The notes under the pieces were generated by a model. It saw nothing but the letters and a program-made list of their open reading frames with translations, was not told the DNA's origin and searched no databases. Below are positions 7,077 to 53,861 of a stretch of DNA of 61,079 nucleotides, piece after piece. Every line of letters begins with the position of its first letter. The stretch's first letter is position 1. The stretch is from NCBI GenBank assembly GCA_022750455.1, contig JAKIVR010000005.1, positions 1 to 61,079 on the forward strand, written 5' to 3'. Made by a program: the position numbers and the translations under genes. This stretch comes from Thermoplasmata archaeon. Lineage in GTDB: Archaea; Thermoplasmatota; Thermoplasmata; Lutacidiplasmatales; UBA184.

Positions 7077-7192
7077 TGCGGGGAGCCGGATTTGAACCGG
7101 CGGACGCCTTACGCGACAGGATCTCTCACGGCGGCCGGACGAGCCGGCGCCGGTTTAAGTCCTGCGCCGTTGCCAGGCTTGGCTATCCCCGC
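7077..7192 (-). tRNA. tRNA-Leu(UAA) with predicted 31-nt intron (7123..7153) at anticodon position 37/38
   Basis: Perfect acceptor stem GCGGGGA/TCCCCGC, anticodon stem CAGGA/TCCTG, loop CTTAAA|A, 15-nt long variable arm, T-arm GCCGG-TTCAAAT-CCGGC, discriminator A; CCA not encoded. Confidence 0.93.
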
Positions 7193-44071: not shown

Positions 44072-44155
44072 GGGGCCGCACTCTCCTCAGATGTGTCTGG
44101 CCAGCGTTATATGGCGTCCGCGTCGTCAAGCGCATGGCACGACACAGAGCGAGGC

Positions 44156-47100
44156 ATGCGAGAGGGGAACGTTGCGGTGGGATTCGTTCATCGAATAGTG
44201 CCATCCCCGGAGAGCCGGGAGGCGCCTCGATCGGTCCGGGTGCCCGCCCGCTCGCTCGCCTTCGCGGTCGCGATCGGGCTCCTCATGATCGGCTCCGCCT
44301 GGTCCGGCACCGGTTTCTCGGCCGTCACCTCCGCCGGGGCCACCCCGAGCTCGGTCCACGCCGTCGCGCCCTCGTCCGTCGACTCCCGGTCCCCGGTGGC
44401 GGCTGCGTCCCAACCCCCGACCGCCGGCCTTCCCGGCCAGAGCCCCGTGGGGGAACCGACCGTCCTTCCGAACGCCGCATTCACCGGTCATCCTCTCCTC
44501 AACCCCTCGGCCAATCTCACCAGCACCCCCACCGTTCCCTCCACCTCGGTAGCATCCAGCCCGCCGCCCGCGGCACGAACCCTCGGACCGGTCGAGCTCG
44601 CCCCGCCCCCGGTCCCGAGCGTCACGATCAACGGCACGGTCCTCGCGGACCCGTTGCCCCACGATCCGATCTCCGGGGCCTCGGTCACCTACATCACCGT
44701 CGGTCGGGCCTGCTCGGGCAACTCCCCGTGCGCGGGGACGAGCACCAGCAGCACCGGCGCGTTCCAGCTGAAGGGCGTGTCGCCCGGCACGATCGTCGTG
44801 ACGGTCGCGGTCGGCGCCAACATGACGAACTATACCACGCTGTTCAACGTCTCGGCGGGCTCCTTCGTCAACACCGGGATCATCTACATGGTGCCGGACG
44901 CGGTCGTCTCGGGCTGCGTCAAAGGCGCGGACCCGAAGCACGAGGCCGCGACGTTCATCCAGGTCGCCGGGTACAGCCGCAACGGACAGATCGAAGCGGA
45001 GTCCCCGGTCACGACGAACGGCAACACCGGCTGCTTCAACACCCCCGGCGTCCCTGTGCCGCCGGGCCCCGCGGTGATCGATTTCACTCCCGAGGCGGCC
45101 GCCACCGGCTTCTACGAAGCGAACGATACGTACGTCGACCTGTACGCGGGCGAGCATTACAACGTGGGCACGATCTATCTGACCGTCGGGGTACGCGTGC
45201 TCGCGATCCCGTACGATTCCGTCACGAAGAAGCCGCTCCCCGGCGGCACCTGCCAGCTGTACGAGCAGAACCCGGAGTGCGTCTCGATCCAGTTCGAGAG
45301 CCGCCTGACGGGCGTGACGTTCACCCAGGGCGCGGCCCAGGGCGAAGGGACCGACTGCTCGGCGAGCTCCACCAGCCTCTGCCCCGTCGCGATCGCACCC
45401 CCTGGCAACGACACGATGACGGTGCTCGCGGACGGCTACATCGAGAACGATAGCGCCGTGTACGTCCCGGCCGAACCGCCGACGAAGACCGTCAACCTCC
45501 ACATCGTCTGGCTCGTCCCCGACGGCGCGATCAACGGGACGAACGGCTTCACGTGGCCCAGCACGGTCAAGGATTCCAAGTGGTACTCGACCGTCAGCGG
45601 GGCGGAGTACACCATGTCCGTCTGCAGCCTCGACGGGTACCTCCCCGCCTACCACCTCGCCGGGGGCCGCGAGTACTTCCATCCGAACTACAACATGAGC
45701 TCGAACACGTGCATCACGAACTGCCAGTTCGCGGACACCTCGTTCGCCTCCCTCGCGCCCCCGCTCCGGGTCAGCATCCTGATCAAACCCGACACGGAGG
45801 GCCAGTGCAGCTACCAGCCGACGTGGCCGATCCCCGACTCGTTGCCGGTCTTCTCCAACAGCAGCTACGCGAACGTCACGCCCGAGAAGGAGGTCTCCGT
45901 CGGGCACATCGACTGGACCGCCGGCACGTACGTCACGGGTCAGGTCCTCCCCGGCTACGCCTGGACCGTCACCGTCTGCTCCACGGACGAAGTGAAAGTC
46001 TGCTTGCAACCGGCGAGCTCGATCAACACGACCGGTGCGGGGGATTATGGCGGCAACAACCCGTGCACCTCGAGCGGTCAGGGCCAGTGGTCGGTCTGCC
46101 CGGACGATCCGCAGTACTGCCCGAACCCGACGGGTCACACCCCGTCCCCCGGGAACACGTTCTGCGTCCCGGCGTTCCCCGGCCCGGATGAGCTCCTCGT
46201 GACCTCCCCGTACTCCGGTTCGAACCTCACGTGGATCTACATCAAGCCCGGCGACTTCTCGGGGGGCCCGCTCTCGTTAGCTTCGGTGACGACGAACCAC
46301 GTCAGCTCCATCAATCTCTCGGGCGGGTCCATTGTCGGGAACCTCACCGATGCCCTCACCGGCGCTCCGATCCCGAACTGGCTCTCCCCCCTCGCCCAAG
46401 CGGCCTCGGCCGGTCAAGGGGCGGGCGGCGGCTCCGGCGGCGCCGTCAACGGCAAGTTCAACATCACCACGACCTCGGGGTGGCTTTCGGTGACGGGGAT
46501 CGCTTCGGACTTCCAGCCGAACGTCACCTGGGTCCACGTCAACAACTCCGTCGTTTCCGCGAACGTCGGCAACATCAGTCTCGAGCCGACCTCGTGGCTC
46601 GCCGGCCAAGTCTTCGACGTCAATGGGACGCCGATCAGCTTCGCGGACGTCAACACCTGCGAGATCGGCAGCAACGCGTGCGTCCCCGTGCTCAACGGAG
46701 GTCAGACGAACACGTTCGGCCAGTACTCGGCGGCGCTTCCCGGCGGGCCGTTGCCGCTGGGAACGTACGTCGTCAGTGCGAGCGCGCCGGGGTACATCAC
46801 GAACTTCACTTGGGTGAACATCTCCGCCCCCGGCCAGTACTACAACGCCTCCCCGATCAACCTCACGCCGTTCCTGGAAGTGCACTCTGGCAACATCCTT
46901 GGCCCCTCCCACGATCAGACGCCGCCGCCGCCCGACCCCGATGAGTACCTCGTCGGGGCGTTGGTCGACAACATCTCCGGGGGAGGGATCCCGACGGGGA
47001 CGATCACCTTGAACTCCGTCTACGGCGGGACGATCCTGCTCCAGGGCTCCGTCACGGACGGGGGCCAGTTCAACTACACTGTCGCCTCGGGGCTGTACTG

Positions 47101-50095
47101 GGCGAACATCACGGCCCAGAACTACTACCCGACGACGTTGTTCCTGAACGTCAGCGGGCTCGCGCCGTCGCTCGACTTGGGCACGGTCGGGCTGGAGCCG
47201 TTCGTCGGCTACGTGGCGGGCCAGGTCTACATCGCCCCGTGGCAGTCGTTCAGCCTCGCCGACGGACTCGGCCCGGGGAAGCTCGAAGTGACGGTCTGCC
47301 TCGAGTTCGACACGGCTGTCTGCGGCCAGGGAGAGGCGGATTCGAGCGGCTTCTTCAACGTCAGCGCTCCGTGGGGCTACCACGACCTCGTCATCCTCCA
47401 GCCCGCCGGGACCGTCCCGGCGAACCTCGGTTCGGCCCCGTACGGCTTCCTCAACGGGACGACGAACGCGAACGTCATCAACGAGTCGAACCGGACGTTC
47501 GTCAACACGACCCTTCTGATCTTCGGTGGGTTCACGGGGTTCGCCCTCGATGAGAGCACCCAGAACACGACCCCCGTCCGCTTCGGGAACATCGGCGTCG
47601 ATCTCACCAACAAGACGAACGGTCAGACCTCCGCCTCCGAGGAGCTCGGGGGCGGCGGCGAGTTCACCGTCTTCCTCCCCCCAGGATCGGTGAGCGCGGA
47701 GTTGACCGGTTCCGCGTACGTACCGGATAATTTCACTTCCCCGAAGACGCTCTCGAACATCACGCCGGGGAACGTCACCGCCATGCCGGACCAGGACCTC
47801 CTGCACTTCGGCTGGGTGACGGGGAACCTCACCTCCTCGGTCGCCCCGTACGGGCAGCTCGACGACTGGGTCGTCGGAGCCGGTGTGAGCACCACGTACT
47901 TCGACCTCTTGCTCGGCGGGAACATCGGCGGGCAGACGGCCGCCGACGACACGGGCTACTTCAACGTCACCGCGCCCCCCGAGCAGGGCGTCTCGCTCCA
48001 GACGACGGCGCCGGATTACAACGCGACGTTCAAGTTCAACATCGATCTGAACCAGAGCCAGACGATCGCGCTCAATGCCACGGCGGTGCCGGCGATGGTC
48101 CCGTGGGGCTGGGTCTCGGGGACGGTCGTCGATCCGACCCTCGGGATCCCGGTGAACTCCGCGAGCATCCTGATCACGGACCCGACGGGGATCTACCAGT
48201 CGAACACCGGGCTCGTGACCTCCGAGGCCGGCCACTTCCTCGCCGACGCGATCACGGGCCCGACCGACCAGATGGTCATCCGGCACGACGCGTACCTCAC
48301 GAACACGTCCACGGTCAATGTGACCGCCGGGAACCTGACGTCGCTCTCCGAGGTCCGGCTGACGGGCACCGGCGTCATCGCCGGTCAGGTCATCGGGTTC
48401 CCCGGAGGGATCCCTCTCGGCGGCGCCGACATCTCGGTCTGCTCGGTCAAGACGCCCACCTGCAGCAACTTCACCACGCAGGCGAACCAGGAGGGGGTCT
48501 TCTGGGCGCTCGCGCCTCCCGGCACGGACATCATCGATGCCACGTTCGGGGAGTACGCCTCGAACGTTTCGATCATCGTGCAAGTCGCGTCGGACTCGTG
48601 GGAGTGGGTCGGCCAGATCGGCCTGTACGGATATGCGACGGTCACGGGCACGCTGCTGGGCATCCCCTCGGGACTGGCGCTCCCCGGAGCGAACGTCAGC
48701 TTCTGCTCGACGCTGGTCCAGCCCGGCGAGGTGACCGGGCCGTGCTTCACGACCGTCCAGACGAACCCGATCGGGCAGTTCACGATCTCCGCGGAGGCCG
48801 GGACGTACATCCTGCAGCTCAACGACTCGGGATACGCGCCGACGTACCTCCCCGTCTCCCTGACCCCTGGCGAGCAGGTGCAGCTCGGCTCGGTGCTCCT
48901 CCTCCAGGACGGGACGCTCTCGGGAACCGTCGTCGGGTCGGACACGTTGAGCCCGGTCGCGGGGACCCTCATCGTCGCCTGCACGGCGGGCGTCACCTCG
49001 ATCTGCACGCCGACGTACACGGCGAACGTCGACGGCGCCTTCTCGTTCCCGGCGAACCCGGGCGTCTACGTCCTCGTCGTCAGCGCACCCGGGTACGAGG
49101 ACCGGTACCTTGGGGCGAACGTCCAGTCCGGGTTCATCACGTCGCTCAACCTGATCCAGCTCACCCCGATCGGGACCGACCAGCTGTACACGATCTCGGG
49201 GTCGGTCATCGCGACGAACAGCTCGGCGCCGATCGTCGGCGCCTCGGTGATCAGTGCGGGCGGCTACGTCTCCGCGCCGACGAACGAGTTCGGGGACTTC
49301 TCGATCCAGGTGCCCTGGGGGACGTATGACTTCGTGGCGCGCGCCGCGGGGTACGAAGCGCAGTCCCAGAACGTGACGGCTCACGCGGACGTCACGGGCG
49401 TCGACTTCCTCCTCGCGCCGACGGCGTACACGTTCTCGGGCCTCGTCACCGACGGTCTGACGGGATCGGTCGTATCGGGCGCCGACATCGAGACCGAGTA
49501 CGTCGGCGTCTCCTCGGTCATCGCGACCTCCGACGCGGACGGTCTCTTCTCGGCGGTGCTCTCGAACGGCAGCTATTCGATCGTGCTGCAACCCCCCGGG
49601 ACGGGTGGGTACGTCCCCCAGACGTTCCCTCTCTCCATCAACGGGGCGAACGTCAGCCGGAACCTCTCCCTCTACCCGCCCCAGACGGTCGTCGACGGGC
49701 TCGTCGTGGACGCGTCGACGGGACTCCCCGTGATCCACGCCTCGATCATGATCGTCGGCACGACCGTGACCGGGATCCCGTGGAACGAGACATACTCCGC
49801 CTCGTCGCTCGGGACGGTCTCGGCCTCGGTCTACTCCGGGACGTACACCATTGAGGCGTCGGCGAGCGGCTACGCGTCGGCGAGCCAGTCCGTGGCCCCC
49901 CGCGGCAGCAGCCAGCAGGTCGTCTTCTCGCTCAACGTCGAGCCGACGAACGCGACGACCACTCCGGCCGGCTCGGGCTCGTCGTGGAACCCGACGCTGG
50001 CGATCGGCGCCGTGGTCGCCGTCGGCGCCCTCGCGTTGGTCGCCGTCGCCTTGATCACCCGCCGCCAGCGCTTGACCCGCGGAGGCGCGACGTGA
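44156..50095 (+). CDS. Giant (~1980 aa) surface protein with many carboxypeptidase-regulatory-like (CarboxypepD_reg/PEGA-like) beta repeats and C-terminal TM
   Basis: Repeated patterns such as VSGTVVDPTLGIPVNSASILITDPTG, LSGTVVGSDTLSPVAGTLIVAC, ISGSVIATNSSAPIVGASVISAGG, FSGLVTDGLTGSVVSGADIETEY; signal-like N-terminal TM; C-terminal TM LAIGAVVAVGALALVAVALITRRQR. Start codon uncertain. Confidence 0.85.
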   Translation: MREGNVAVGFVHRIVPSPESREAPRSVRVPARSLAFAVAIGLLMIGSAWSGTGFSAVTSAGATPSSVHAVAPSSVDSRSPVAAASQPPTAGLPGQSPVGEPTVLPNAAFTGHPLLNPSANLTSTPTVPSTSVASSPPPAARTLGPVELAPPPVPSVTINGTVLADPLPHDPISGASVTYITVGRACSGNSPCAGTSTSSTGAFQLKGVSPGTIVVTVAVGANMTNYTTLFNVSAGSFVNTGIIYMVPDAVVSGCVKGADPKHEAATFIQVAGYSRNGQIEAESPVTTNGNTGCFNTPGVPVPPGPAVIDFTPEAAATGFYEANDTYVDLYAGEHYNVGTIYLTVGVRVLAIPYDSVTKKPLPGGTCQLYEQNPECVSIQFESRLTGVTFTQGAAQGEGTDCSASSTSLCPVAIAPPGNDTMTVLADGYIENDSAVYVPAEPPTKTVNLHIVWLVPDGAINGTNGFTWPSTVKDSKWYSTVSGAEYTMSVCSLDGYLPAYHLAGGREYFHPNYNMSSNTCITNCQFADTSFASLAPPLRVSILIKPDTEGQCSYQPTWPIPDSLPVFSNSSYANVTPEKEVSVGHIDWTAGTYVTGQVLPGYAWTVTVCSTDEVKVCLQPASSINTTGAGDYGGNNPCTSSGQGQWSVCPDDPQYCPNPTGHTPSPGNTFCVPAFPGPDELLVTSPYSGSNLTWIYIKPGDFSGGPLSLASVTTNHVSSINLSGGSIVGNLTDALTGAPIPNWLSPLAQAASAGQGAGGGSGGAVNGKFNITTTSGWLSVTGIASDFQPNVTWVHVNNSVVSANVGNISLEPTSWLAGQVFDVNGTPISFADVNTCEIGSNACVPVLNGGQTNTFGQYSAALPGGPLPLGTYVVSASAPGYITNFTWVNISAPGQYYNASPINLTPFLEVHSGNILGPSHDQTPPPPDPDEYLVGALVDNISGGGIPTGTITLNSVYGGTILLQGSVTDGGQFNYTVASGLYWANITAQNYYPTTLFLNVSGLAPSLDLGTVGLEPFVGYVAGQVYIAPWQSFSLADGLGPGKLEVTVCLEFDTAVCGQGEADSSGFFNVSAPWGYHDLVILQPAGTVPANLGSAPYGFLNGTTNANVINESNRTFVNTTLLIFGGFTGFALDESTQNTTPVRFGNIGVDLTNKTNGQTSASEELGGGGEFTVFLPPGSVSAELTGSAYVPDNFTSPKTLSNITPGNVTAMPDQDLLHFGWVTGNLTSSVAPYGQLDDWVVGAGVSTTYFDLLLGGNIGGQTAADDTGYFNVTAPPEQGVSLQTTAPDYNATFKFNIDLNQSQTIALNATAVPAMVPWGWVSGTVVDPTLGIPVNSASILITDPTGIYQSNTGLVTSEAGHFLADAITGPTDQMVIRHDAYLTNTSTVNVTAGNLTSLSEVRLTGTGVIAGQVIGFPGGIPLGGADISVCSVKTPTCSNFTTQANQEGVFWALAPPGTDIIDATFGEYASNVSIIVQVASDSWEWVGQIGLYGYATVTGTLLGIPSGLALPGANVSFCSTLVQPGEVTGPCFTTVQTNPIGQFTISAEAGTYILQLNDSGYAPTYLPVSLTPGEQVQLGSVLLLQDGTLSGTVVGSDTLSPVAGTLIVACTAGVTSICTPTYTANVDGAFSFPANPGVYVLVVSAPGYEDRYLGANVQSGFITSLNLIQLTPIGTDQLYTISGSVIATNSSAPIVGASVISAGGYVSAPTNEFGDFSIQVPWGTYDFVARAAGYEAQSQNVTAHADVTGVDFLLAPTAYTFSGLVTDGLTGSVVSGADIETEYVGVSSVIATSDADGLFSAVLSNGSYSIVLQPPGTGGYVPQTFPLSINGANVSRNLSLYPPQTVVDGLVVDASTGLPVIHASIMIVGTTVTGIPWNETYSASSLGTVSASVYSGTYTIEASASGYASASQSVAPRGSSQQVVFSLNVEPTNATTTPAGSGSSWNPTLAIGAVVAVGALALVAVALITRRQRLTRGGAT

Positions 50096-53219: not shown

Positions 53220-53337
53220 GCCGAGGTGGCTCAGTCCGGTACGGCGCAGGCTTGGAAAGCCTGTGGCGAATTTCGTCTCGGGAGTTCAAACGCCGCCACC
53301 GGCCGTTCCGGTGCGGCGGAGATTCTCCCCCTCGGCG
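53220..53337 (+). tRNA. tRNA-Ser(GGA) with predicted ~33-nt intron in the T-loop (about 53291..53323, position 59/60)
   Basis: Acceptor GCCGAGG/CCTCGGC, anticodon stem CAGGC/GCCTG with loop TTGGAAA, long variable arm GGCGA/TCGTC, T-stem GGGAG/CTCCC interrupted after TTCAAA, discriminator G. Confidence 0.88.
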
Positions 53338-53363: not shown

Positions 53364-53861
53364 ATGACCGCCCTCTCCCGACAGACGACCCCCGCGCTGC
53401 TCCAGATCAACTCGATCTTCCGCCACCTCGACGGCCCGGCCGCGCTCACCGAGATCTGCCGGTACCTTCGCCGGGAGTTCCCCCATTACCACTGGCTCGG
53501 CATCTACCGTCTCGAGGGGAGCGAGCTCGTGCTGGACGCCTGGGACGGGGACGCCCCCACGGAACACGTCCGGATCCCCGTGGACAAGGGATTGTGCGGA
53601 CAGGCGGTCCGGGAGGGACAGACCGTCCTCGTGAGCGATGTCCGCTCCGCCCCCGAATACCTCTCCTGTTTTCTCGACACCCGCAGCGAGATCGTCGTGC
53701 CGATCCGTCGGGACGGGCAGGTCATCGGAGAGATCGACGCCGACGGTCTCACCGTGGGCGCCTACGACGCGAGCGATGACCGGTTCCTCACCGAGGTCGC
53801 CCGGAAGATCGCGCCGGCGATCGGACGCCCGAGCGGACCCGCCGCCGCTCCGACGAGCTGA
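53364..53861 (+). CDS. GAF domain protein (free methionine-(R)-sulfoxide reductase-like)
   Basis: HYHWLGIYRLEG, IPVDKGLCGQAVREGQTVLVSDV, SEIVVPIRRDGQVIGEIDADG. Confidence 0.8.
   Translation: MTALSRQTTPALLQINSIFRHLDGPAALTEICRYLRREFPHYHWLGIYRLEGSELVLDAWDGDAPTEHVRIPVDKGLCGQAVREGQTVLVSDVRSAPEYLSCFLDTRSEIVVPIRRDGQVIGEIDADGLTVGAYDASDDRFLTEVARKIAPAIGRPSGPAAAPTS

Follow-up and report, generated by a model that had tools for sequence, protein, structure and literature searches.

The 33 nucleotides at positions 53291–53323 (+ strand) of the window, the whole 61,079-nt stretch of Thermoplasmata archaeon DNA analysed here, most likely constitute an archaeal bulge-helix-bulge (BHB) intron placed between positions 59 and 60 in the T-loop of the sole tRNA-Ser(GGA) gene, which belongs to a set of T-loop introns running through the whole family Ca. 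Lutacidiplasmatales. We put the probability of this reading, in which splicing is deduced from sequence comparison, at about 0.94.

The tRNA-Ser(GGA) gene occupies positions 53220–53337 of the + strand and, as read from the sequence, is complete once the 33 nt are omitted. Exon 1 (53220–53290), delimited by the sequence, by ARAGORN and by parsing together with the relatives, consists of the 5′ strand of the acceptor stem (53220–53226), the D-arm, the anticodon arm with GGA at 53254–53256, the variable arm, the 5′ strand of the T-stem (53280–53284) and T-loop positions 54–59, UUCAAA (53285–53290). Exon 2 (53324–53337), read from the sequence, supplies U60, the 3′ strands of the T-stem (53325–53329) and of the acceptor stem (53330–53336), and the discriminator base G73 (53337). 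Once spliced, the T-arm reads GGGAG-UUCAAAU-CUCCC, exactly as in the intact tRNA-Ser(UGA) of this genome, and this match, together with the family orthologues, places the intron (CGCCGCCACCGGCCGTTCCGGTGCGGCGGAGAT, 33 nt) between positions 59 and 60. The precursor folds with −62 kcal/mol (z = −3.8 relative to shuffled sequences). The first-pass annotation had given the coordinates of the T-loop insert exactly to the base and had correctly described its hairpin, as the fold confirms; its proposal that a Thermoplasmatota archaeon has a tRNA intron at T-loop site 59/60 is supported, and its warning that gene finders may miss or truncate the gene proved justified. ARAGORN calls a tRNA-Ser(gga) with a false end at 53304, and the Rfam tRNA model stays below threshold, aligning 53220–53283 under loose settings at 22.5 bits, where the cut-off is 29.

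The precursor of this gene would adopt a BHB structure built partly from T-loop bases. The intron half of the central helix is GGAG (53318–53321), conserved in 161 introns; G53319, A53320, and G53321 pair with C56, U55, and U54 (53287, 53286, and 53285), and G53318 lies opposite A57 (53288) at the fourth position. The inner helix corresponds to a hairpin at 53292–53317, identified from the fold and from compensatory changes among 11 orthologues. According to the geometry of the motif, A58, A59, and the first intron base (53289–53291) form the 5′ bulge, and A, U, and U60 (53322–53324) the 3′ bulge. In a BHB, each 3-nt bulge is cut after its second base. Applied here, this rule predicts cuts at 53290/53291 and 53323/53324, and cleavage at both bulges would give a standard 7-base T-loop.

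The same pairing recurs in 161 distinct introns, whose last six bases we label x1, x2, x3, x4, b1, and b2, the last two making up the 3′ bulge with U60. Bases x4, x3, and x2 pair with U54, U55, and C56 in 158/161, 161/161, and 159/161 introns, respectively, a conservation that is partly selected, since the loci were found with a covariance model (R1) made from interrupted tRNAs of the genome under study. The coupling at position 57 does not depend on the way in which the loci were detected, because this base is unpaired in R1 and all the seeds have A57 and G. Within the 161 introns, G57 is always opposite C (29/29), while A57 faces G in 116 cases, U in 12, and other bases in 4. Watson-Crick pairs at this position number 41, compared with a mean of 15 and a maximum of 23 in 5000 permutations. 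Furthermore, base 57 and its partner switch together within the orthologous Asp, Asn, Arg(UCU), and Gly(UCC) tRNAs; among four Lys(TTT) genes of family f34, which lie outside the 161 counts, two have A, not C, opposite G57. The inner helix begins one base inside the intron; of the cells in its first six positions, 89.5% are paired, as compared to 49.7 ± 1.4% when the arms are exchanged.

A textbook BHB consists of two 3-nt bulges and a helix of four positions (PMC6379350, PMC4090602). Here we find two 3-nt bulges and a four-position helix with three standard pairs in about 98–100% of the 161 introns, the fourth position being G-C or A-U in 41/161 and otherwise mostly A.G. The modelled BHB of the 59/60 introns is thus near-canonical but not perfect, and for the Ser(GGA) gene, with three standard pairs plus A57.G, it is not the relaxed variant that had been suggested at first. 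The A.G at the fourth position of 116/161 introns is a point that counts against a BHB intron.

The Ser(GGA) insert, which the first-pass annotation called unusual in this context, is only one of many. By reading weak tRNA matches and by searching with R1, which was built from four sequences with Gly(UCC) left out, we identified in this genome no fewer than 13 tRNA genes that are interrupted exactly at 59/60 by 28–35 nt, namely Ser(GGA), Ser(GCT), Ser(CGA), Arg(UCU), Asn(GTT), Asp(GTC), His(GTG), Ala(GGC), Glu(CUC), Gln(CUG), Gly(UCC), Lys(UUU), and Leu(UAG). Their spliced T-loops read UUCRAAU, as in intact tRNAs. The use of one site by so many tRNAs can be attributed to the near-universal occurrence of UUCRAA in T-loops, so that any insert ending in G-R-R-N-N completes the motif. 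Canonical 37/38 introns also occur in this genome, in the tRNAs for Leu(UAA), Tyr, and Met. The tRNA-Leu(UAA) gene at 7077–7192 (− strand) of the window, recognised by an Rfam match and from its sequence but overlooked by ARAGORN at default settings, has its intron in the anticodon loop and an intact T-loop, and shows the ordinary archaeal tRNA intron structure in the same genome. Canonical introns share the motif and presumably the enzymes with the 59/60 introns, whose central helix is instead formed by T-loop bases 54–57 and not by anticodon bases.

A second position of insertion was also observed. The Lys(TTT) and Leu(TAG) genes carry an extra D-loop insert of about 31 nt besides the T-loop intron, and D-loop inserts of about 30–34 nt, with or without a T-loop intron, are found in these two genes and in the Arg-GCG and CAT tRNAs of the relative G038; the D-loop is a second non-canonical insert site in the same lineage. 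In addition, a 9.8-kb contig of the own genome (C95) contains two tRNA 3′ portions resembling Ile(GAU), each with an unusual 5′ half, which may represent element-borne tRNAs or D-arm introns.

The trait extends throughout the family. R1 matches 103/103 genomes of Ca. Lutacidiplasmatales, and, given this recurrence and the same pairing in 161 distinct inserts, chance can be ruled out as the source of the Ser(GGA) insert. In a class-wide scan, the best E-value was ≤ 3.8e-12 in all 71 family genomes at least 80% complete, compared with 1e-8 to 1e-10 in most other families, approximately the level produced by intact tRNAs. All the genomes compared are MAGs or assemblies. Parsing gave 150 tRNAs with an interrupted T-loop from 56 genomes of the family, or 169 from 66 genomes when those outside it are counted, and interrupted sets recur in all seven genera of the family. 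Outside it, T-loop inserts were found in Lys(TTT) of families f3, f8, f9, f11, and f13 and of f34, which belongs to another class; in Lys(CTT) of f8, f9, and f11; in Met(CAT), Leu(TAA), and Ser(GGA) of f18; and in Arg(TCT) of f31 and f47. The inserts of the sister family f2 are only 13–15 nt long and end in UGAAAA or GGAAAA, with the central helix kept and the inner helix absent. One sister-family genome (G118) shows such 13–15-nt T-loop inserts in Ser and Arg tRNAs, where UUCA pairing without an inner helix gives a bulge-helix-loop. A reasonable reading of these sequences is that an old Lys intron was followed by a later expansion within the Lutacidiplasmatales family.

Concerning their origin, an alternative to old, inherited introns is a recent spread by transposition from one tRNA gene to another, of the kind that has been proposed for Thermoproteales. 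This would agree with the similarity of the Arg(UCU) and Ser(GCT) introns of the own genome, which score 21 against a maximum of 18.5 among 9209 unrelated pairs. Otherwise, introns of the same genome resemble each other no more (mean score 4.8) than unrelated ones do (5.1), orthologues reaching 8.2, and the sets recur across all seven genera, so that we regard recent transposition as rather unlikely. Judged by these similarity scores, general recent transposition among the introns of this genome is unsupported beyond the Arg(UCU)/Ser(GCT) pair. In any case, this alternative bears on the origin of the inserts and not on their status as introns.

The 22 family orthologues of the Ser(GGA) gene are interrupted at the same place and have conserved exons. 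Eleven of them, with the same intron length, align without gaps; their mean pairwise identity is 94% in the exons and 67% in the intron. The full structure is paired in 95.3% of the cells of this alignment, whereas structures slid along it pair in only 42–56%. Seven pairs are doubly changed, compared with 1.7 in shuffled alignments (0/500), and three of the seven fall in the inner hairpin of the intron. A strict consensus pattern that included the own anticodon arm gave almost no matches in the relatives because this arm differs there. The same data bear on the possibility that no splicing takes place and the mature molecule keeps the insert in an extended T-arm, as an expanded hairpin tRNA. 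Such an arm is conceivable, given a stable hairpin stacked on the T-stem; however, retention would disrupt the T-loop/D-loop elbow simultaneously in 13 or more isoacceptors, it does not account for divergence to 67% identity beside exons that stay at 94%, and the pairing of bases 54–57 with the 3′ end of the intron, outside the hairpin, would serve no obvious purpose without cleavage. We therefore consider retention very improbable and return to the spliced BHB intron.

The number of gene copies also argues for splicing. In the relative G038, which is 100% complete, 37 tRNA matches were obtained, and none of the intact ones is for Asn, Asp, His, Ser (GGA, GCT, or CGA), Ala(GGC), Lys(UUU), Arg(UCU), Gln(CUG), or Gly(UCC); these anticodons occur only in interrupted genes. 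Because G038 has no other tRNA for Asn, Asp, or His, the interrupted genes for these amino acids must be spliced and give working tRNAs. The first-pass annotation had pointed out that a second, intact tRNA-Ser(GGA) gene would speak for a decaying pseudogene at this locus; a copy could have been missed in the own genome alone, which is 92.75% complete, but intact Ser(GGA) was found neither there nor in G038, and with exons conserved rather than eroding in 22 family orthologues, a pseudogene is hardly credible. Group I or other self-splicing introns were rejected, as inserts of 13–40 nt are far too short.

The genome encodes the enzymes expected for splicing. The EndA-type endonuclease is the product of a single gene (contig C35, 40488–41285) with two tRNA_int_endo domains, best matched by archaeal splicing endonucleases; it is not the heteromeric or three-unit enzyme considered at first, but of the alpha′2 type without a broad-specificity loop. 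An RtcB ligase is also present (PF01139, E = 1.5e-168). In the alignment of EndA sequences, the catalytic residues are conserved (Tyr in 81/83, with Phe in two; His and Lys in 83/83). At the CSL/ASL site, 82 sequences have a short loop; the only long insertion, of 22 residues, belongs to the A. fulgidus variant 3p1y and is read here as a Crenarchaea-specific loop with Lys-Pro-Arg. The features associated with broad specificity, (alpha-beta)2 with CSL or epsilon2 with ASL, were not found in the own genome, which has no second subunit gene and whose EndA has no extra loop with a conserved Lys beside the active site. The protein resembles the alpha′2 enzymes of Archaeoglobus fulgidus (1r0v/2gjw) and Thermoplasma acidophilum (2ohc) in being encoded by one gene with two repeats, in having the catalytic Tyr-His-Lys in the C-terminal repeat, and in lacking CSL/ASL at the usual site. 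Unlike the A. fulgidus enzyme, it has a longer N-terminal repeat (KTPSKYW region): around residues 85–115, this degenerate repeat is about 14 residues longer and is conserved in Thermoplasmata (LPRGG...KTPS..W), and it might have a part in specificity.

Another point against a BHB intron is that alpha′2-type enzymes are called narrow in specificity (PMC6379350, PMC4033280), while this genome has many non-canonical introns; alpha2 enzymes are reported to cut canonical BHBs only (PMC4033280), and Euryarchaeota to have few unusual introns (PMC4090602). On the other hand, a study of the homodimeric enzyme of Ferroplasma, another member of Thermoplasmatota, found cleavage of minimal BHB substrates at 30°C and states that homodimers are able to cleave bulge-helix-loop motifs, and that archaeal enzymes act in this way whether or not a mature tRNA domain is present (PMC8707768); near-canonical BHBs at an unusual site fit these findings. 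In the mechanism that we propose, U54, U55, and C56 (and base 57) of the precursor would pair with the intron GGAG, and the T-stem outside and the intron hairpin inside would leave two 3-nt bulges. The two-repeat EndA would cut after A59 and before U60, and RtcB would join the exons into the standard T-loop UUCAAAU. Splicing would then precede T-loop modification and folding onto the D-loop.

Position 59/60 is a known intron site (PMC4090602), and introns in the T-arm have been described for some archaea (PMC4090602, PMC3293823, PMC8707768). The non-canonical BHB introns of Crenarchaeota (especially Thermoproteales), Nanoarchaeum, Caldiarchaeum, and wetland Asgard archaea, the last with introns in more than 90% of their tRNA genes (PMC11291895), are like those described here in site, BHB, short length, the many isoacceptors affected, and the occurrence of D-loop introns in the same genome. 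The differences are that the present set belongs to Thermoplasmatota, is concentrated at one T-loop site, and coexists with a two-repeat endonuclease lacking the Crenarchaea-specific loop. In the literature searched, which excluded most subscription papers, we found no report of T-loop introns in Thermoplasmatota; Sheridan et al. 2022 (PMC9287336), whose Lutacidiplasmatales are the SubAcS and AcS MAGs, say nothing about introns in their main text. As far as we could check, what is new is the lineage, the clustering at a single site, and the type of enzyme, the introns themselves being of a known kind.

In reviews, an abundance of non-canonical tRNA introns is linked to endonucleases of the (alpha-beta)2 or epsilon2 type that carry a special loop, and the euryarchaeal alpha2 enzymes are described as narrow (PMC6379350, PMC4033280). 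By contrast, a whole family with a narrow-type two-repeat EndA and no CSL/ASL loop appears to keep a conserved set of a dozen or more T-loop introns, plus D-loop ones, in essential single-copy tRNA genes. We consider it fairly probable that the spread of non-canonical introns needs no broad-specificity endonuclease, but only UUCRAA as half of a near-canonical BHB, and that in this family splicing comes before T-loop modification and folding. A euryarchaeal-type lineage of about 100 species with a plain enzyme and many such introns makes the co-evolution idea directly testable, and its introns, which evolve fast beside fixed exons, provide enzyme assays with a naturally occurring set of BHB variants. 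Moreover, software with no model for such introns may give wrong counts for the tRNA sets of the Lutacidiplasmatales, which are widespread in acidic soils.

Finally, the tRNA-Ser(GGA) gene is directly followed on its 3′ side by a gene for a GAF-domain protein (53364–53861, + strand), and positions 44093–50095 (+ strand) of the window encode a 2000-residue protein with repeated carboxypeptidase regulatory-like domains, probably a surface protein.
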